Shown: piece by piece, positions 5,608 to 53,611 of the stretch
How positions within the stretch are numbered: the first letter of the stretch is position 1
Layout of the letters: every line of letters begins with the position of its first letter
Source: Flammeovirga pectinis
Lineage (GTDB): Bacteria; Bacteroidota; Bacteroidia; Cytophagales; Flammeovirgaceae
Length of the DNA: 64,000 nt
Direction: 5' to 3'
NCBI RefSeq assembly: GCF_003970675.1
Contig: NZ_CP034563.1
Location: 1-64,000 of the forward strand
Notes under the pieces: model-generated
What the model saw: only the letters and a program-made list of their open reading frames with translations
Told to the model about the DNA's origin: nothing
Database searches by the model: none
Program-made: the position numbers and the translations under genes

Positions 5608-8328
5608 ATGAAACATATTTTGACTTCAATCTTGTTGTTCATTCAATTTGTAGCAATTGCTCAAGAAGGAACAATGAGTGGTACTGTTCGTGTGAATGGT
5701 ACAGAAAGAGCTCTTGTTGCAATACGAGTAGCCATTAATGGAAATACGTATATTACTGATGAAAATGGTAAGTTCGAAATTCCGAGCGATATCAATCTTA
5801 AAGATGCATTAATCCATATTTCTGCAGATGGTTTTGTACCTGTAGACATTAAGTTTAAAGATAAGATGGTGATACTCCTATCGCCCCAACTTGATGATGC
5901 TAACTCTATTGCTTTATCACTTACAGATCTAGACGAAGATGACGGTGATACACAATCTACCCCAGGTCTTTTATTCTCGTCGGGCGATGCTTATTCTGCT
6001 ATTGCTGGTTATGCTTGGGGACCATATTGGTTTAGAGCTAGAGGATATCAGTCAAATTATATGAACGTTTATATTGATGGAATTAACATGGCTTCTCCAG
6101 AAAGAGGGTATGCTTCTTTCTCTATATGGGGTGGTTTAAATGACGTTACTCGTAATAAAGAAACAACTGTTAATATGTCTCCAGTAGATTTTACTTTTGG
6201 TAATATTGGTGGTTCTACAAACATAATTACAGACCCTTCTCAACAACGTCCTGGTTTTAAGGCAAGTTACTCAATGAGTAATTCAAGTTATAGAAATAGA
6301 TTTATGCTCACTTATTCTTCTGGTTTACTAGAAAATGGGTGGGCATTTACGGTTTCTGGATCTAGAAGATGGGCACAAGAAGGTTTTGCAGAAGGTACTA
6401 CTTATGATGCTTATGCAGGATTTATTAGTGCCGAAAAGCAATTTTCTGATAGACACAAAATTGTTTTAACTGCTTTTGCTGCTCCATCAACAAGAGGTCA
6501 GCAAGGAGCAACAGTACAAGAAGCTTACGATTTAAAAGGAACAAATTATTACAATCCGTATTGGGGTTACCAAAATGGAGAGAAACGAAACGGTCGTACA
6601 AAATCAACACTGTCTCCTCAATTTATTGTAAAAGATCAATGGAAAATTAATGAGAAATTGACCTTAAAGACAGCAGTTGGCTTTACATATAGTAAAGAAA
6701 AAAGAACTGCATTAAATTGGTACGATGCTCCAGACCCAAGACCTGATTATTACAGAAATTTACCTTCGTATCAGTACGATCAAGGTAATACAACTGCAGG
6801 AGATTTATTAACTGATTTATGGAAAACAGATAAATACGGTCAAGTAGATTGGGATTTTTTCTATAAAACAAACCAAAATAACCCAGAGACTGTACCTGTT
6901 GATTGGACAAAGCCTAATGGTGAAACAATTACAGGAAATAGATCACATTATATTTCTGAAGAACGTAACTTAGATGCTTATCATATTGATGTAAACCCAA
7001 CAATAATCTGGGATATTAACTCATCATTGAAGTTAACAACAGGCATTCAATATCAACTTTACAAAGGAAATAATTACAATACTTTAGGAGATCTTCTTGG
7101 AGGTGATTTTTGGGTAGATATTGACAATTTTGCTGATAGAGATTTCCCAAACCCTGTTAAAGCTTTAAATGACATGAACGATCCTAATGTTGTTAAGAGA
7201 GTTGGAGATCGAATTGGTCATGATTACTCTTCGAATATAACAACTGCAGGTTGGTGGGCGCAAGTTCAAAAGTCTTTTAATAGAGGTTCTATTTACTTAG
7301 GAGGTAACATTACGCAGACCTCTATGTTTAGAGAAGGTAACAGAAGAAAAGGTTTATTCCCTCTAAATTCATATGGTAAATCTGATGTATTAGATTTTAC
7401 AGATTATGGTGCTAAGATTGGTGGTGAGTATTTTATTACTGGTCGTAATGTAGTGACTGCAAACGCTACTTATTATACAAAAGCACCTTACTTTGTAGAT
7501 AGTTTTACTTCTTTAAGAACAAGAAACGAAACGGTTGAAAATCTTAAGTCATCTAATGTGATTTCTGGTGATGTAAATTACTATTATAGAGGCGAAAGAT
7601 TAAAAGCAAGAGCATCTGCATTCTATACTCAAATAAACGATCAGACTAAAGTGATTAGTTATTATGACGATGCCTATCAAAACTTTGTAAACTATGTGCT
7701 TACTGGCATGGGGCAAGAAAATATGGGTGTTGAATTAGGCTTACAATACAATATTACTCCAGAATTAAGGGCAAAAGCTGCCGGTACATACGCAAGTTAC
7801 ATGTATAATGCTAACCCTAACGCAACAACTACAGTAGACAATAGTTCGTCAAAACTTAGTGAAGATGAAACAGTTTATTTTAATAATAGACATGTAGGTG
7901 GTACTCCAGAAGTTGCTGGTTCTTTAGGTTTAGAATATTGGTCTAAAAACTATTGGTTTGTAGGTATTCAAGGTAATTTCTTAGGTGATAGATATGTTAC
8001 TTTAAACCCTGCCAGATATACAGATAGAGCTATTGATGAGCCAAATATAGAAGTTGGAAGCGATCAATATTATGCAATACTTGATCAAGAATTATTAGAA
8101 AACTCTTTCACTCTTGATATCTCTGGAGGCAAAAGTTGGAAGATCCACAACTACATGCTTCGTGTTAATCTAAATATCAATAATGTTCTGAACAATCAGA
8201 ATATTGCCACTACAGGTTTCCAGCAATTTAGATATGACTTTGTAGATGGTAATCCAGATAAATTTGCCAACAAATATTACTACGCACAAGGTATTAGAGC
8301 CTTTTTAAACGTAGGCTTAACATTCTAA
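5608..8328 (+). CDS. TonB-dependent outer-membrane receptor
   Basis: The 906-residue protein has a signal peptide (ends AIAQ), a carboxypeptidase-regulatory-like domain (about 20-95: GTMSGTVRVNG...ADGFVPVDI), a plug domain (about 115-210: WFRARGYQSNYMNVYIDGINM, GNIGGSTNI) and a 22-strand-type barrel to the C-terminus, which ends in an aromatic residue (NVGLTF). Such receptors import ligands using TonB energy. There is no SusD partner; two DUF5689 lipoproteins follow and an EEP nuclease precedes it, so the likely cargo is a nucleic-acid-derived product or phosphate. That substrate is inferred from neighbours only. Confidence 0.9.
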   Translation: MKHILTSILLFIQFVAIAQEGTMSGTVRVNGTERALVAIRVAINGNTYITDENGKFEIPSDINLKDALIHISADGFVPVDIKFKDKMVILLSPQLDDANSIALSLTDLDEDDGDTQSTPGLLFSSGDAYSAIAGYAWGPYWFRARGYQSNYMNVYIDGINMASPERGYASFSIWGGLNDVTRNKETTVNMSPVDFTFGNIGGSTNIITDPSQQRPGFKASYSMSNSSYRNRFMLTYSSGLLENGWAFTVSGSRRWAQEGFAEGTTYDAYAGFISAEKQFSDRHKIVLTAFAAPSTRGQQGATVQEAYDLKGTNYYNPYWGYQNGEKRNGRTKSTLSPQFIVKDQWKINEKLTLKTAVGFTYSKEKRTALNWYDAPDPRPDYYRNLPSYQYDQGNTTAGDLLTDLWKTDKYGQVDWDFFYKTNQNNPETVPVDWTKPNGETITGNRSHYISEERNLDAYHIDVNPTIIWDINSSLKLTTGIQYQLYKGNNYNTLGDLLGGDFWVDIDNFADRDFPNPVKALNDMNDPNVVKRVGDRIGHDYSSNITTAGWWAQVQKSFNRGSIYLGGNITQTSMFREGNRRKGLFPLNSYGKSDVLDFTDYGAKIGGEYFITGRNVVTANATYYTKAPYFVDSFTSLRTRNETVENLKSSNVISGDVNYYYRGERLKARASAFYTQINDQTKVISYYDDAYQNFVNYVLTGMGQENMGVELGLQYNITPELRAKAAGTYASYMYNANPNATTTVDNSSSKLSEDETVYFNNRHVGGTPEVAGSLGLEYWSKNYWFVGIQGNFLGDRYVTLNPARYTDRAIDEPNIEVGSDQYYAILDQELLENSFTLDISGGKSWKIHNYMLRVNLNINNVLNNQNIATTGFQQFRYDFVDGNPDKFANKYYYAQGIRAFLNVGLTF

Positions 8329-8374: not shown

Positions 8375-11300
8375 ATGAAAAAATACATTAAGAGGTTTAC
8401 TAGATATAATTTAATTTTGATGAGTCTCTTTCTTACAATTTCAGCTTGTGAGAAAGACGACCCAGATATGCCAGGAACAAAAAAAGAAAGTTCTAAAGTA
8501 AACGTTCAGGTTACCCACTCTATCTCACAATTAAAAGAGTTATACGACGGGTCTGATTTATTTGATATTAATGAAGATATCACCATCCAAGGAACAGTAA
8601 TTTCTTCGGATTCTACAGGAAACATTTTTAAATCAATTTTTTTAATTGATGATTCTGGACAAGGTATTCAAGTCAAAGTAAATAAGACAGAACTTTATCT
8701 TGATTATAAAATTGGTCAAAGACTTTTTATAAAATGTAAAGATTTAATGTTAGGTCAGTATGGAGGAATCATACAAATTGGAGGAGAATACAAAGGTAAA
8801 ATTGGTAGTATTGATGAAGCACTTATTGCTGATCATATTATAAAAGGAGCATTAGAAAATATTCCAACACCTACTAAGTTAGATTTAACAGCTCTTCCTA
8901 AGGAGATTGAAAAATTATACAATACTTGGGTAACTTTAGAAAATGTACAATTTGTTGAACAAAACGTAAATTATACAGACGGTCAGAAAACTACAAATAG
9001 AGTAATAACAATTGCTTCTGGAGAAAAAGTAGCTGTTAGGACTTCTAATATGTCTAGTTTTGCAGGAGAAAAATTACCTACAAAAAGTGGTAGTATAACT
9101 GCTATTTTATCTGCTTTTAATGGCGATTTACAATTAACTATCAACTCTTTAGACGATGTAAAATTTGAAGCTCCTCGTTTCAATATCTCTGCCGGAAACG
9201 GAAAAGGTACTTTAGCAGATCCTTTTGATATAAAAGCCGCAGCAGCAAGAGAAGGTGAAAAAGAAGTTTGGGTAAAAGGTTATATTATAGGTTCAATTAA
9301 TGGTAAATCTTTTAAAGATGACTTTGTTCTCGGTTCGCAAACATCTTCTTCGGTTTCTAATGTATTAATTGATACAGATAAAGACGTCAAAGATGCTACA
9401 AGTGCTTTTCCAATTCAGTTATCTGATTTACAGCTTCGTTCTGATTTAAATTTAAAAGACAATAAAGTTAATTACAAAAAAGAAATCTGGATTAAAGGTG
9501 ATTTAGAAAGTTACTTTTCTACAACAGGTTTAAAGAATGTCACTGCTTATTCTTTTGATGGTAAAACAGTTGTTTCAGTACAAGGAAGTAGTAATACTAT
9601 TGGTTTAGGAAATGAAATTAAAGGTAGCGAATTTACTAAATCTACTATTGATTTTATTACTTGGAATGAAACAACTTCTGGAGCAATTTGGGAAAGTAGT
9701 AATCAAAAAGTTGGTGTAAATGCTTTCAAAAAAGGTGCTACTTCAGCATGGATGATCTCTAAAAATGAGGTCGACTTTTCTGCCCTTACCACACCTAGAT
9801 TAATTATTACAGAGGAACTTAATTACTTCTCAGATTTTAAAGATATTGAAGTTCTAGCATCTACCGATTATAAAGGTGGCGATCCTACAAAAGCCAATTG
9901 GTCTGTCTTGAATGTAGATGGTGTTCGTAAAAATGCAGGAGAAAATGAAGTCCAATTTGATGTATCAGGAAGTGCTTATATCGCATTTAGATATAAGTCT
10001 TCAGATACAAAATCTATGGAATGGTCTATTAAGAGTGTAGAAGCTGCAGAAAAAGTTGCTGTACAACCTGCTGATCCTGTTGAGGGAGATGGTTTAACAA
10101 TAGCAACAGCATTTAATGTTGCTGGGGTTAAAGCAAATCAAGGAGCTGCAAAAAATAAAGACTATAAATGGGCAAAAGGTAAAATTGTTGGTTACTTAAC
10201 TAGTGCAGGTTTTATGGCAGGTACAGCAGGAGCTGGAAATACAAACATAGTAATTGCACTAAGAGATAACGAAACCAACGAAGATAAATTAGTGAGTGTT
10301 CAACTAAGTAAAGGCTATATCAGAGACGGTTTAAATTTAGTTGATAATCCTTCTTACTTAAATAAAATTATTTGGGTAAAGGGTGCATTCGAAAAATATT
10401 ATGGCCTTGAAGGTATTAAATCAATAAAGGCTTTCTCTATTGATGGTAGTACTGAAGTTCAAGACCCAGGGAGTATTGTACATCCTATTTTAGGACAAGG
10501 AACTGATATTTTAGGAAGTTCACTTGTGGCTACATCAATAGATTTTAGTACTTGGAATGTTACATCTTCTGAAATGATATGGACAGCAAAAAGTAGTAGT
10601 GCAAGTATTAATGGTAACGGAAAGGGAACAAATAATTCGTGGTTAATCTCTAAATCTACAGTAGATTTTTCATCACTTACTACACCTAGATTATTTATTA
10701 CTGAACAGATTTCATCTTTTAAAGCACTTACTAATGTTAGAATTGTTTATTCAACAAACTACTCTGGTAATGGAGACCCAACAGCTGCAACATGGACTGA
10801 CTTTACTGTAGATGGAACAAGAGTAACATCTGGAAGTACAACAACTCTTTTAGAACAACCTACTGGAGCAAATAATATCTACATCGCTTTTGTTTATACA
10901 AATAATGATGATTCTGATGCTTCGAGTTGGTCTATTTCTAGTGTTAAAGCTGATGATAAACCAACTGGTCCAATTTTACCTGCTGGTGTTAATTTAGGAG
11001 ATGCTTCTGTAAGTGGTTTTTCTGATCTAATAATTTCAGAATACGTTGAAGGTTCTGCTACTGCCAATAGATTTATTGAGCTATATAATGGAACCGGAAG
11101 TGAAGTTGATTTATCAGAATATGTATTGAAAAAAGACTCGAATGGTAAAGGTACTTTTAGTTCTAAAATATCATTGAGTGAGAAACTTCCTAATGGGGCA
11201 ACTTTGGTAATAATGTACAAAGCAGAATCTGCAAATGTACTCCCTGCAGGTGTAACGGGTAAAAGGAATGGCTCTTTATCAATTACAGGTAATGATATGG

Positions 11301-50093: not shown

Positions 50094-50110
50094 ACTTTGT
50101 AATTCAAAGT
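50094..50110. promoter_or_regulatory. Operator-like palindrome C, before the membrane protein-regulator operon
   Basis: ACTTTG-TAATT-CAAAGT, with arms identical to sites A and B, ends 7 bp before the start codon at 50086 and would block the ribosome-binding or promoter region when bound. Confidence 0.7.
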
Positions 50111-50642
50111 AAGTAAATTAAAATTTTAAGAACAAGATTTAATAGAAAAAATGTGTTTATTATTTTGTATTCATTTAGAATATCTCTTTTTAATTAAACA
50201 CCACATTGTTAATATTATTAAGCAGCTAAAGAGTAAATACTAACAGTCTAAAATGTATTAGTTTCTAACTAAACACAATTTATCCGCCCCATTAATGAGG
50301 AGGATGCAAAGTTGCTAGCTCTACTTGAATATATAATCCTAAGCAATTTAGGTATCTAACTTCTGTTGTATATGATTAAGACACCACTATTTCGAATCTA
50401 CCCAATTTTACATGACTGATTAGCATGATTGTTAATGTTTGATTATTTAAAGTTGGGTGCTAATTGAATTGTAATATTGAGTATTACTTCGCTCATTTAA
50501 AAAACTATATATGCTAAAATATCAACAGAGGTTAATTATTTCAAAAGACTAACTATCAATGCCTCAACGTTTTTATTTTTTAGTTGAATAGTTATTTTTG
50601 GATACTCTGCTATTTTGAATTTAAATATCCAATTTACATTTC

Positions 50643-50675
50643 GTCGACTATAGTCCGTTGTAAGATCGTCTACAA
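50643..50675 (+). promoter_or_regulatory. C-box-like tandem operator for the controller protein
   Basis: GACTATAGTC, a perfect 10-bp palindrome at 50646-50655 followed by CGTT, resembles the GACT...AGTC-CGT operators of restriction-modification controller proteins such as C.PvuII and C.Esp1396I. A weaker dyad TTGTA-N8-TACAA at 50658-50675 has its centre 16 bp further on, close to the spacing of the two dimer sites in those operators. The block lies 17-50 bp before the controller ATG. Confidence 0.65.
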
Positions 50676-50692
50676 TAGATGAATTTTATTTC

Positions 50693-50905
50693 ATGGAAAA
50701 TATCAATGTAGTTTTTGGAAAAAGAGTAAAGGAATTACGTAATCAAATAAAAATATCTCAAGAGAAGTTTGCGAATGAGATAGGTATTGATCGTACCTAT
50801 ATGACTGATATTGAGAATGGGAAAAGGAATGTTTCTTTATTCATTATTGAAAAGATTGCAAAAGGTTTTGAGATGTGTCTGTCTGATCTTCTAAAAGGTC
50901 TATAA
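50693..50905 (+). CDS. Restriction-type controller (C) protein, XRE-family HTH
   Basis: The 70-residue protein is a single XRE helix-turn-helix domain: FGKRVKELRNQIKISQEKFA, then IDRTYMTDIENGKRNVSLFI and IEKIAKGFEMCLSDLL. The RTYxxxIExGxRNxSLxxIxKIA pattern is that of C proteins, which time expression of restriction genes by binding C-boxes. The C-box-like element directly upstream supports autoregulation. The nuclease-helicase gene begins 50 bp downstream. No DNA methyltransferase is present in the window. Confidence 0.85.
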   Translation: MENINVVFGKRVKELRNQIKISQEKFANEIGIDRTYMTDIENGKRNVSLFIIEKIAKGFEMCLSDLLKGL

Positions 50906-50955
50906 TTAATATTTCCATCCAATTAATTACAAAATAAGACCAATTGTCAAGATTT

Positions 50956-52920
50956 ATGAAAAGATATTATTATGGTGATACCATTGCCGATTTTTTGAAA
51001 AAAGATACAATAACAATTCAAGGATTCTTACTTAAATACCATAAAAACAAGCAACTTGAAGAACTTCAGAAGAATGCTTGGGAAGCTCAAATAGACATAT
51101 TAAAAAACCAACTGATAGGTTTAGAAGGTCAAATATATTTTGAATATACCATTCCTAGAATGGGAAAAAGAGTTGATAATATAATAATTATTGATAGTAA
51201 AGTTTTTGTGGTAGAATTTAAAGTTGGTTCTAAAAGTTTTGATTCAATCTCACTTGATCAGGTTATTGATTATACTGAAGACTTAAGAAATTTTCATGAA
51301 GGAAGTCATAATGCAGATTTATTTCCAATTCTCATTTCAACGAGAGCCAATCCTATTCCTGATTTTAATACTGAAATAGGTAAATGTAACTCACATAACC
51401 TATCACAATATATTCAGTTTGTAATAAAAAATAAAAAAACGAAATACCTAAATGTTGAGCAATGGGAAAATTCAATTTATAAACCTACTCCAACTATTAT
51501 TGAGGCAGCTCAAGCTTTGTATAAGGGCCATAATGTTCAAGATATATCAAGGTCTGATTCTGGAGCAATAAACTTAACAAGAACTTCAAATTGTATTTCT
51601 AAAATAATTGATTCAAGTAAAGAGAAATATCAGAAGTCAATCTGTTTTGTTACTGGTGTTCCTGGAGCAGGAAAAACTTTAGCAGGATTAAATATAGCAA
51701 CTATTAGAAAAAGTAAGAGTAAAGATGAACATGCTGTATTCCTTTCTGGAAATGGCCCTCTAGTTGATGTATTAAGAGCTGCTTTAGCTAAAGATGAGGT
51801 GAAAACTGCAAAAGAAAATAAAATTAAATTAAAGACAGATGATGCTAAAAGAAAAGCAAATTCTTTTATTCAAAATATCCATCACTTTAGGGATGATAAT
51901 GTTGGAAGTTTAAAAGCTCCTATTGAAAAGGTTGTTGTTTTTGATGAAGCTCAAAGAGCATGGAATAAACATCAAGCAATAAAATTTATGAATAGTAAAG
52001 GACATAAAGATTTTAAGATGTCTGAACCTGAGTTTTTAATTGATGTGATGAATCGTCATTCTGGTTGGTGTACTATAATTTGCCTAATTGGAGGAGGGCA
52101 AGAGATTAATACAGGCGAAGCAGGAATAAAAGAATGGGTAACTGCTATAAAAGAAAAATATTCTGTTTGGAATTTATATTATTCATCTCTTATAACAAAA
52201 GATAAAGACTACCTAAATGACTATGAATTAAATTCTTGGTTAAATAAAAATGGGACTCCTCTTAATGATCTTCATTTATCTGTTTCCCTTAGATCATTTC
52301 GATCTGAGGATCTATCAAACTTAATACATCAAATTCTAAATTTAGATGAACTAAACACAAAAAGTTTATCCAATTTATTATTACAATACCCAATTGTAAT
52401 TACTAGAGATCTAAAAAAGGCAAAAAAATGGATAAATAAAAAGGCAAAAGGAAGTGAAAGGTGTGGAATGCTTATTTCCTCAGGTGCAAGAAGGTTAAGA
52501 GCAATTGGTATTGACTCCGAAAATGGAATAAGATCAAATTCTGAAAAGCCTAAAATTATAAGTTGGTTTCTTAATGATAAATATGATGTAAGAAGTTCTT
52601 CCTTTTTAGAAGTTCCTTCAACTGAATTTGCAGTTCAAGGCTTAGAACTAGATTGGGTTTGCTTGGCTTGGGGAGGTAATTTCTTTTTTGATAATGACCA
52701 ATGGAATTATCAAAAATTTGTTGGTAGTAAATGGCAAACTATGAAAAAAGAAGAAGATAAAAGGTATCTACTGAATACGTATAGAGTGCTACTTACTCGT
52801 GCTCGCCAAGGTATGGCCATTTTTATACCAGAAGGTTCAAAAAATGATTTTACACGAAAAACTTCATTTTATGATGGTACTTTCAACTATCTGAAATCTA
52901 TGGGCATACCCGTTATTTAA
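50956..52920 (+). CDS. PD-(D/E)XK nuclease fused to a DUF2075 superfamily 1-like helicase
   Basis: I use the ATG at 50956 (654 residues); a TTG at 50944 would add four residues. The N-terminal part has a PD-(D/E)XK nuclease signature: Asp74 in RVDNIII, Glu87-Phe-Lys89 in VVEFKVG and a QxxxY motif (Gln102, Tyr106), as in RecB/Cas4-like nucleases. The DUF2075 helicase part has Walker A GVPGAGKT (234-241), Walker B with DEAQR (330-334) and a late motif RVLLTRARQGMAIFIPEG (about 608-625) typical of SF1 enzymes. Such ATP-driven nuclease-helicase fusions are common in defence islands. It is preceded by a C protein and followed by a small gene, with no methyltransferase. Confidence 0.88.
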   Translation: MKRYYYGDTIADFLKKDTITIQGFLLKYHKNKQLEELQKNAWEAQIDILKNQLIGLEGQIYFEYTIPRMGKRVDNIIIIDSKVFVVEFKVGSKSFDSISLDQVIDYTEDLRNFHEGSHNADLFPILISTRANPIPDFNTEIGKCNSHNLSQYIQFVIKNKKTKYLNVEQWENSIYKPTPTIIEAAQALYKGHNVQDISRSDSGAINLTRTSNCISKIIDSSKEKYQKSICFVTGVPGAGKTLAGLNIATIRKSKSKDEHAVFLSGNGPLVDVLRAALAKDEVKTAKENKIKLKTDDAKRKANSFIQNIHHFRDDNVGSLKAPIEKVVVFDEAQRAWNKHQAIKFMNSKGHKDFKMSEPEFLIDVMNRHSGWCTIICLIGGGQEINTGEAGIKEWVTAIKEKYSVWNLYYSSLITKDKDYLNDYELNSWLNKNGTPLNDLHLSVSLRSFRSEDLSNLIHQILNLDELNTKSLSNLLLQYPIVITRDLKKAKKWINKKAKGSERCGMLISSGARRLRAIGIDSENGIRSNSEKPKIISWFLNDKYDVRSSSFLEVPSTEFAVQGLELDWVCLAWGGNFFFDNDQWNYQKFVGSKWQTMKKEEDKRYLLNTYRVLLTRARQGMAIFIPEGSKNDFTRKTSFYDGTFNYLKSMGIPVI

Positions 52921-53035
52921 ATTGTACTACTATTTATTTTTTTATAAAAATTACTTTTCCTTAGTTTAAGTTACCTCGTTAAACACAAAAATAGGTAAGT
53001 TGAAGAAATACGAAATTTTATAGCTTTAGTAGGAC

Positions 53036-53467
53036 TTGTTGGATGTATTAATAGCCTACTATAGATCAAAAGAACACCTAGAATGGATTAAAGAAAAAGG
53101 TATTTATAACTTTAGGATGAATAATAATAGAGGTGCTTTAAAATTGACTAAAGAGTCATTTAATTCGAAGTATTTACTATTACATAAAAAAGGTGATAAC
53201 ACTTCATCCATTCTTTTTAAGATTAGGAAGCCTGAATTTAGGGTGACTTCACGAGAAACACTTTTACATCTTGGTTATCCAACTAAACCAAGTCAACTTA
53301 GTTACCTTACTATTAGTTTAGATAAGTGTGAAGCAGAAGAATTTAAAGGTTTAAAATGGAAGTTTAAAGATCTGAAAAATTATAAATCAAGAAGGGCTTC
53401 TGCTATACCATTTGCAGCAAGTATCGCTGAGTTTATGAAAGTGAAAGAAATTATAGAAAATGAATAG
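53036..53467 (+). CDS. Unrecognised small protein of the nuclease-helicase cassette (TTG start)
   Basis: The frame has no ATG near its start. TTG codons at 53036 and 53039 come directly after an in-frame TAG, and AGGA five bases before 53039 could serve as ribosome-binding site, so I read about 142 residues beginning LDVLIAYYRSKEHLEWI. The protein is basic and contains GIYNFRMNNNRG, SKYLLLHKKGDNTSSILFKI and TLLHLGYPTKPSQLSYLTIS, a beta-rich pattern that reminds me of PUA/EVE-like modified-base readers, without a firm match. It could instead be N-terminally truncated. It lies 115 bp after the helicase gene on the same strand. Confidence 0.55.
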   Translation: MLDVLIAYYRSKEHLEWIKEKGIYNFRMNNNRGALKLTKESFNSKYLLLHKKGDNTSSILFKIRKPEFRVTSRETLLHLGYPTKPSQLSYLTISLDKCEAEEFKGLKWKFKDLKNYKSRRASAIPFAASIAEFMKVKEIIENE

Positions 53468-53611
53468 CCATCGATATCGTCAACGAATCCCAACGATCCA
53501 ATAAATAATATGTATGAATCAAATCTTAGAATACAAAACCTAATATATATAAATAAGAGGCTTTTTCACAACTAAAACGTGAATTAGTCTCTTTTCCTAT
53601 TATCAATTGAT

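Follow-up and report, generated by a model that had tools for sequence, protein, structure and literature searches.

A candidate PDC-S41 nuclease-helicase gene behind a restriction-type C protein, with no adjacent methyltransferase, in Flammeovirga pectinis

Controller (C) proteins are usually explained as timers that put methylation ahead of cutting in restriction-modification (R-M) systems. As far as the available parts of the papers cited here go, the optimal site of C.Esp1396I consists of GAC and GTC flanking TATA (PMC3758141), and the general mode of these proteins is activation when a first site is filled, followed by repression when a second one is filled (PMC4041747; PMC12707154). Moreover, a C-family member with a type I hsd locus has been described (PMC12707154), so that C proteins beyond type II systems are already known. 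The subject of this analysis is a cassette at positions 50643-53467 of a 64,000-nt stretch of DNA from Flammeovirga pectinis (contig NZ_CP034563.1), the whole of which is referred to as the window. Three open reading frames (ORFs) on the plus strand were found there, as an earlier note on this DNA had indicated: a C gene, a gene of the PDC-S41 family of the PADLOC collection, encoding a nuclease-helicase, and a small frame termed ORF3. The preferred reading, with a probability of roughly 70%, is that of a horizontally acquired restriction-like defence gene (PDC-S41) that has no adjacent methyltransferase and is placed under a classic C-protein switch. What is observed at the sequence level comprises the C gene, the two-site geometry of its operator (the C-box), intact nuclease and helicase motifs, no adjacent methyltransferase, a repeated pairing of both genes and the exchange of the effector.

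Among the described systems, the type II systems Esp1396I, AhdI and BclI are alike in the C family, in the GAC-TATA-GTC site accompanied by a second site and in the C gene lying upstream of the nuclease gene. The cassette differs from them in having no adjacent methyltransferase and in the fusion of the nuclease to a helicase; neither a cognate methyltransferase in the locus nor a type II restriction endonuclease (REase) behind the C gene was found. The type IV system McrBC is alike in having no dedicated methyltransferase. McrBC-like genes were found in another genome (locus L172, see below) with the same C-box and behind a C gene near-identical to those of PDC-S41 loci at the same site, and many McrC-like proteins end in the domain that constitutes ORF3. 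However, the cassette holds neither the McrB GTPase nor the DUF2357-PDDEXK_7 body, and only the C-terminal domain is present, as ORF3. Nhi, a single gene (PMC12904381), and Hachiman (HamAB) were compared by description only; both combine nuclease and helicase, and the available parts of their descriptions mention no C control. The literature search did not find PDC-S41 by name, gave nothing on defence for DUF2075 in titles and the beginnings of abstracts, and gave nothing relevant for the PADLOC defence candidates. Likewise, the literature searched contained no account of a methyltransferase-free system under a C protein, which does not prove that none has been published. The closest counterpart is thus PDC-S41 itself (the S presumably standing for a single-gene candidate), matched over nearly its full length, from which the window gene differs by standing behind a C protein and a C-box.

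The C protein, its operator and the nuclease-helicase

The features that carry the preferred reading are the following:

50646-50670, plus strand: C-box operator, with the distal GAC-TATA-GTC at 50646-50655 and the right half of the second site, GTC, at 50668-50670
50693-50905, plus strand: C protein (controller) of 70 amino acids with an HTH_3 domain, matched in PADLOC, Pfam and the PDB; a homologue stands directly upstream of PDC-S41 in 27 other loci
50956-52920, plus strand: PDC-S41 protein of 654 amino acids, with a predicted N-terminal RecB-like PD-(D/E)XK nuclease and an SLFN-g3 helicase

The first gene encodes a small HTH_3 protein of the C family and has a C-box before it, as the earlier note had recognized. 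Its top PADLOC match was Control_protein (PDLC03665, E = 3.8e-24). Among solved structures it came closest to C.BclI (3.3e-10) and C.AhdI (7.3e-9), and an entry for an R-M controller (3clc group) was matched at 1.6e-5. The sequence upstream of the gene reads GACTATAGTCCGTTGTAAGATCGTC. The core of this C-box is identical to the optimal C.Esp1396I site, and a second GTC is found 15 bp downstream. The Esp1396I oligonucleotides as printed in the available part of PMC3758141 point to a similar spacing of the sites; one of them, 25OL, is printed with 24 letters, and the exact spacing was not relied on.

The conservation of this arrangement was assessed in the nearest PDC-S41 loci, which were the best 80 of 322 relatives in genome contigs, with L082 added from a search of the genus and family (L and G numbers label the compared loci and genomes, respectively). 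A C homologue, defined as a helix-turn-helix gene of the same BLAST cluster located directly upstream on the same strand, was present in 26 of the 80 loci and in L082, which makes 27 C-bearing loci, or 28 with the window. L029 was counted by way of other cluster members, having no direct match to the window C protein at E 0.01, and three of the 80 loci (L017, L019 and L032) had <200 bp of upstream DNA, in which the presence of C could not be judged. With up to 4 mismatches allowed, 20 of the 28 C-bearing loci (window included) have the operator at positions −46 to −48 relative to the start of C, and shuffled versions of the same stretches matched as well in at most 2.5%. At the same threshold, it was found in none of the 54 C-less loci within 300 bp upstream of the helicase gene (2 of 54 for shuffles). 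The presence of the C-box in most of the C loci and not in the C-less ones puts it beyond chance. Of the other eight C loci, seven bear a different motif, ACTTATTGTATGTTG or near it, in a longer inverted repeat at the same place, as judged by eye, and L029 has a partial version. This second operator class, an inverted repeat around ACTTATTGTATGTTG ... CATACAATAAGT, appears upstream of C in L030, L043, L046, L047, L048, L065 and L069. Furthermore, the C-box occurs a single time with <2 mismatches in the window's own genome, so there is no second close C-box to drive a remote methyltransferase. A remote methyltransferase sharing the C-box there was considered and rejected, with just two two-mismatch sites against five for the reversed control pattern.

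The second gene matches the PDC-S41 profile over residues 5-657 of a 658-residue ORF (profile positions 1-652 of 657, E = 2.5e-271). It also matches Pfam PF09848, SLFN-g3_helicase, which we take to be the former DUF2075 (E = 1.4e-79, 268.4 bits against a gathering cut-off of 24), with the Walker A and B motifs present. Since homologues mostly align from about residue 5 of the listed ORF, which opens with TTG, the likely start is the ATG at 50956 (654 residues), and the residue numbering used in the earlier note (Asp74 and so on) fits this start. In an alignment of 60 sequences (the window and 59 chosen from the 80 nearest loci), D74, E87, K89, Q102, Y106, Walker A (G234-T241) and DEAQR (330-334) were invariant, so that the nuclease and helicase active sites appear intact and under constraint, as had been proposed. 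The N-terminal part, which was covered by no profile match other than PDC-S41, is predicted to be a nuclease from these invariant motif residues. The matches of the PDC-S41 profile to the PDB were weak, and the best of them, to potassium-channel constructs (E = 0.0024), was judged to be chance. An extra C-terminal domain beyond residue ~655 (KIGKLV/KIGKFV ... SEWYEQP or similar) was seen in L002, L003, L006, L014 and L028, preceded in L003 by a GreA_GreB C-terminal domain (E = 9.6e-9).

Recurrence of the pairing and methyltransferases nearby

PDC-S41 was detected in none of the 17 genus or family mates searched and in 21 of 330 phylum genomes (window genome included), a broader sample picked without regard to likeness to the window. 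By record titles, the family appears in Bacteroidota, Campylobacterota, Neisseria, Acinetobacter, Akkermansiaceae and others. Two plasmids of Persicobacter sp. JZB09 (L133 and L134) carry PDC-S41, both with 59.1% identity to the window protein and with no C match within the fetched stretch, and two further relatives (L135 and L152, 46-48% identity) lie on contigs labelled phage or viral. That PDC-S41 is instead a DNA-repair or recombination nuclease-helicase, outside defence, with C merely limiting its dose, appears quite improbable. A RecB-like nuclease joined to an SF1-type helicase is, by general knowledge, also a repair-enzyme architecture, but a repair role is argued against by the patchy presence, the spread across phyla, the exchange with McrBC-like genes at one site (L172), and the copies carried by the Persicobacter plasmids and by contigs with a viral or phage label.

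Regarding the pairing with C, a tree of 82 proteins with 28 rows labelled as having C upstream (window included) needed 10 changes of this label, at least 8 of them forced by well-supported branches, compared to a mean of 23.5 for shuffled labels (0 of 500 shuffles as low as 10). The pairing is therefore clustered on the tree, yet it was gained or lost several times. The window protein sits on a long branch of this tree and its placement is unsure.

As the earlier note had claimed, no methyltransferase was found in the window among ORFs of ≥150 residues by a motif screen, a type of screen that did not pick up the type IIG enzyme of L072; for the loci outside the window, the counts rest on PADLOC scans together with a motif look-up. 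These scans, within ~4.5 kb of the 27 C-bearing loci, covered 128 of 136 ORFs of ≥180 residues, the eight long genes outside them being mostly repeats of genes already scanned, and for one scan the matches listed were those of 25 of 28 families. No adjacent methyltransferase was found in any of the 27 loci, so the cognate gene that the earlier note had proposed to look for in related genomes did not appear beside the pair. The motif matches in L065, L067 and L069 had no PADLOC match. Loci L002-L082 were also probed with one C5 and one N6/N4 methyltransferase, the only two probes used, and matched neither.

A census of C homologues (E ≤ 1e-8) gave 38 hits in 34 of 395 genomes, and the 37 besides the window were examined by motif and probe. 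A methyltransferase-like ORF was nearby in 30 of them (doubtful in L226 and L235), two were PDC-S41 loci (L208 and L210), one was McrBC-like and four had none of these. With 30 of 37, C is as a rule accompanied by a methyltransferase, and effectors free of one are exceptional. These figures, from which C normally serves R-M systems, favour the alternative that PDC-S41 works with a methyltransferase, the cassette coming from an R-M system or still belonging to one, with the methyltransferase lost or located elsewhere. It also draws on two C-less PDC-S41 genes directly beside R-M genes, namely L251 (G244), behind a C5-methyltransferase-like gene, and L002 (5032-7998), behind a type I REase gene (REase_I, 2.1e-132). 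Because of these two loci, a methylation link elsewhere in the PDC-S41 family is possible, and the probability of this alternative was raised and that of the preferred reading slightly lowered. It is nevertheless considered unlikely, given that the pair without an adjacent methyltransferase recurs in 27 loci with a conserved operator, whereas a relic would decay, and that PDC-S41 is a nuclease-helicase and not a type II REase. As partners in a wider sense, the genes upstream of C-less PDC-S41 were also rejected, no large shared cluster being found, though single ones are R-M genes (those of L002 and L251).

The reading of an acquired defence gene under C control is weakened, besides L251 and L002, by several further observations. 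Two of the 27 C loci have a methyltransferase at a distance of 3-5 kb, an MTase_II-type gene in L046 (4-5 kb, 5.2e-13) and the type IIG enzyme in L072 (3.2 kb, E = 0), and a weak mad2 match in L043 (5.5e-10, gene ~4-5 kb away) was left out of this count. No C homologue was found in 54 of the 80 nearest loci (including the three with <200 bp of upstream DNA). In the broader sample, it accompanied PDC-S41 in only 2 of 21 genomes and was absent from 19; one of the 21, L253, has ~300 bp of upstream DNA. C control is, from these last counts, a minority form of PDC-S41. In addition, 8 of the 28 C loci have a different operator or match it only poorly, the second C site of the window is imperfect, and activation and repression by the window C protein are expected by analogy with described C proteins. 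Finally, PDC-S41 is listed in PADLOC as a phage-defence candidate only, and the use of a delay switch, obvious with a methyltransferase, is less obvious without one.

Other effectors, the genomic site and a possible mode of action

The exact C-box was searched in 395 phylum genomes and found in six, compared to four for a reversed control, so that the count by itself hardly exceeds chance. A C protein follows at four of these six sites. One is that of the window; in L167/L173, C is followed by a C5 methyltransferase (PF00145, 4.6e-88); in L169/L174, C is near the RteC gene of a mobile element; and in L168/L172, C is followed by a McrB-like AAA_5 gene (E = 1.1e-21) and then by a gene of 456 residues. 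The latter had no Pfam or PADLOC match, and it is probably McrC, given where it lies and that it contains a PD-(D/E)XK-like stretch. In L172, from a Flavobacterium-like genome (G375), the C protein has 66, 65 and 64 of 68 residues in common with those of the PDC-S41 loci L067, L075 and L077, respectively, and L172 shares both flanks with these loci as well. The nucleotide homology with these three loci runs through the C gene, stops at its end and resumes after the effector. Since the flanks and C are shared and homology is interrupted just over the effector, the simplest reading is that one effector replaced another while the C gene and its operator stayed in place.

Two other arrangements were observed around C genes. 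L067 has a second, diverged C-like gene (9998-10216, minus strand) just downstream of PDC-S41 and on the opposite strand to it. Moreover, in each of L214, L218 and L219, a single C-led run combines a C5 methyltransferase with McrB-like genes and one more gene behind them, which places R-M and type IV-like components under the same controller. In particular, the co-directional order in L218 (G124) is C, C5 methyltransferase, a gene of 377 residues, a McrB-like gene and a McrC-like gene with the ORF3 domain.

In the window, the C gene is preceded by a gene-free stretch (50108-50692), part of which has a counterpart in the closest genus-mate, G006:

50347-50599, no strand assigned: part of the gene-free region, with 71% identity to G006 C2:720318-720585

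Synteny with G006 ends at 50159 and resumes at 53543. The same flanks are 87 kb apart in G006, and that stretch is absent from the window genome at this site. Within it (L150 8794-13413, corresponding to G006 C2 ~720.8-725.4 kb) there are a PLD-like gene, a McrB-like AAA gene (PADLOC PDC-M26A, 1.1e-49) and a DUF2357-PDDEXK_7 gene, and the G006 DNA that resembles 50347-50599 lies just upstream of this set. The accessory location put forward in the earlier note is supported; the gene-free stretch that it had taken as a sign of insertion does exist, but it is not simply part of an inserted cassette, because 50347-50599 matches genus-mate DNA. As G006 has a McrBC-like set between the same flanks, the site is a variable region that has held restriction genes.

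The preferred reading suggests the following course. On entry, basal C dimers would occupy the strong distal site and switch on the C-nuclease promoter; with rising amounts of C, the weaker second site would be occupied as well, leading to repression. The result would be a delay followed by expression at a low set-point, which would spare the host damage from a nuclease that has no cognate protective methyltransferase. The PDC-S41 protein would attack invading DNA by a feature other than the absent cognate methyl mark, the candidate targets being ends, replication or repair intermediates, or foreign modification; a modification-dependent mode is possible. We infer this C-driven delay and set-point, the attack on foreign DNA and the tolerance of the host without a dedicated methyl mark. 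Across the phylum, the C gene and the C-box may act as an interchangeable control dock for type II R-M genes, McrBC-like genes or PDC-S41.

According to the available parts of the sources, loss of the repression site leads to toxic overexpression of the REase (PMC12707154), and a C protein already present in a cell can keep out a C-controlled system that arrives later (PMC12707154; PMC3874152). Both ideas extend naturally to a cassette of C and PDC-S41. A more speculative and rather doubtful proposal is that C and the C-box form a mobile control dock in Bacteroidota, with the cassette being a selfish or defensive exclusion unit in the C-incompatibility group of R-M systems. If true, the C protein of the cassette would turn on the REase of a C-controlled R-M element on its arrival, before the methyltransferase of that element has protected the cell, and a C protein arriving with a foreign element would raise PDC-S41. 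Overall, a recurrent C switch before a restriction-like enzyme with no adjacent methyltransferase suggests that the logic of timing or dosage may have another use, for example the dose control of a toxic nuclease or the exclusion of other C-controlled elements.

The third open reading frame

The cassette is completed downstream by one further feature:

53036-53467, plus strand: ORF3, 143 amino acids with a TTG start, a stand-alone copy of the C-terminal domain of McrC-like nucleases and DNA methyltransferases

Pfam, PADLOC, NCBIfam and PHROGs, searched up to E = 1, gave no match for ORF3, and its family profile gave nothing credible against the PDB (best E = 0.65). For the candidate PUA, EVE or ASCH fold put up for comparison in the earlier note, these searches likewise gave no match. 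Relatives were detected in 16 of 394 other phylum genomes and, by profile, in 12 of 394 other class genomes, the two samples overlapping. In 14 of the 16 genomes they lie in open frames of 459-813 codons, and in two (L102 and L103) they are broken by stops; in those relatives that were read out, the ORF3-type domain forms the end of the protein. DUF2357 and PDDEXK_7 precede it in L088, L150, L159 and L099 (split over two ORFs), and PDDEXK_7 only in L155; a DUF2357 domain with a PD-(D/E)XK nuclease is the McrC layout in the available part of PMC11090510. Furthermore, two methyltransferases end in the domain, one of the C5 class in L100 (PF00145, 2.2e-86) and one of the N6/N4 class in L101 (PF01555, 1e-46). 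Neither the window copy of the domain nor its copies in those fused proteins that were scanned matched a Pfam family. L224 (G398) brings together a C gene, a gene of 215 residues and a convergent methyltransferase that bears the domain. Its presence on McrC-like proteins and methyltransferases, including those of the C-led loci L218 and L224, marks it as a domain of restriction loci, some of them C-led. Being common to McrC-like nucleases and two unrelated methyltransferase classes, it may serve restriction systems in DNA recognition or in assembly.

Two views of ORF3 itself were weighed. It is somewhat more likely a remnant than a working stand-alone domain; in either case it would be a domain of the restriction world, left or kept at the 3′ end of the cassette. 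The TTG start, at which similarity also sets in, comes right after two in-frame TAG codons, and between 52921 and 53033 no convincing McrC body was found (best E = 0.004, on the other strand, judged to be chance). ORF3 was not found in the plasmid collection, nor by a pattern scan of the viral contigs. It was also considered as a piece of the McrC of the closest genus-mate, whose McrC-like protein (L150) ends in an ORF3-type domain; with only 24% identity to ORF3, it is not a close orthologue.

The earlier note had treated the three genes as one conserved set. A related alternative joins them into a single system, with ORF3 as a reader domain (of modified bases, for instance) that guides the nuclease-helicase. 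The window copy is intact with its conserved residues kept, and the domain sits at the C-terminus of McrC-like proteins and of both methyltransferase classes, ends the co-directional C-led run of L218 and occurs in the C-led locus L224, all of which is compatible with such a role. However, no other intact stand-alone copy was seen among the matches in phylum and class genomes, the start lies directly behind the two TAG codons, and the profile, applied to 81 other loci and three plasmid or phage contigs, found the domain beside PDC-S41 only as a decayed fragment. A reader role within a single three-gene system is therefore a minority possibility, and the conserved set of three is not borne out. 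As to a random association of the genes, which the note had wanted checked, the part concerning C and PDC-S41 holds up as recurrent (27 other loci), while the ORF3 domain was found beside only one other such pair. That one case is L048, where a decayed end fragment of an ORF3-type domain (7555-7692, minus strand; profile E = 2.3e-9) lies directly upstream of the C and PDC-S41 genes.

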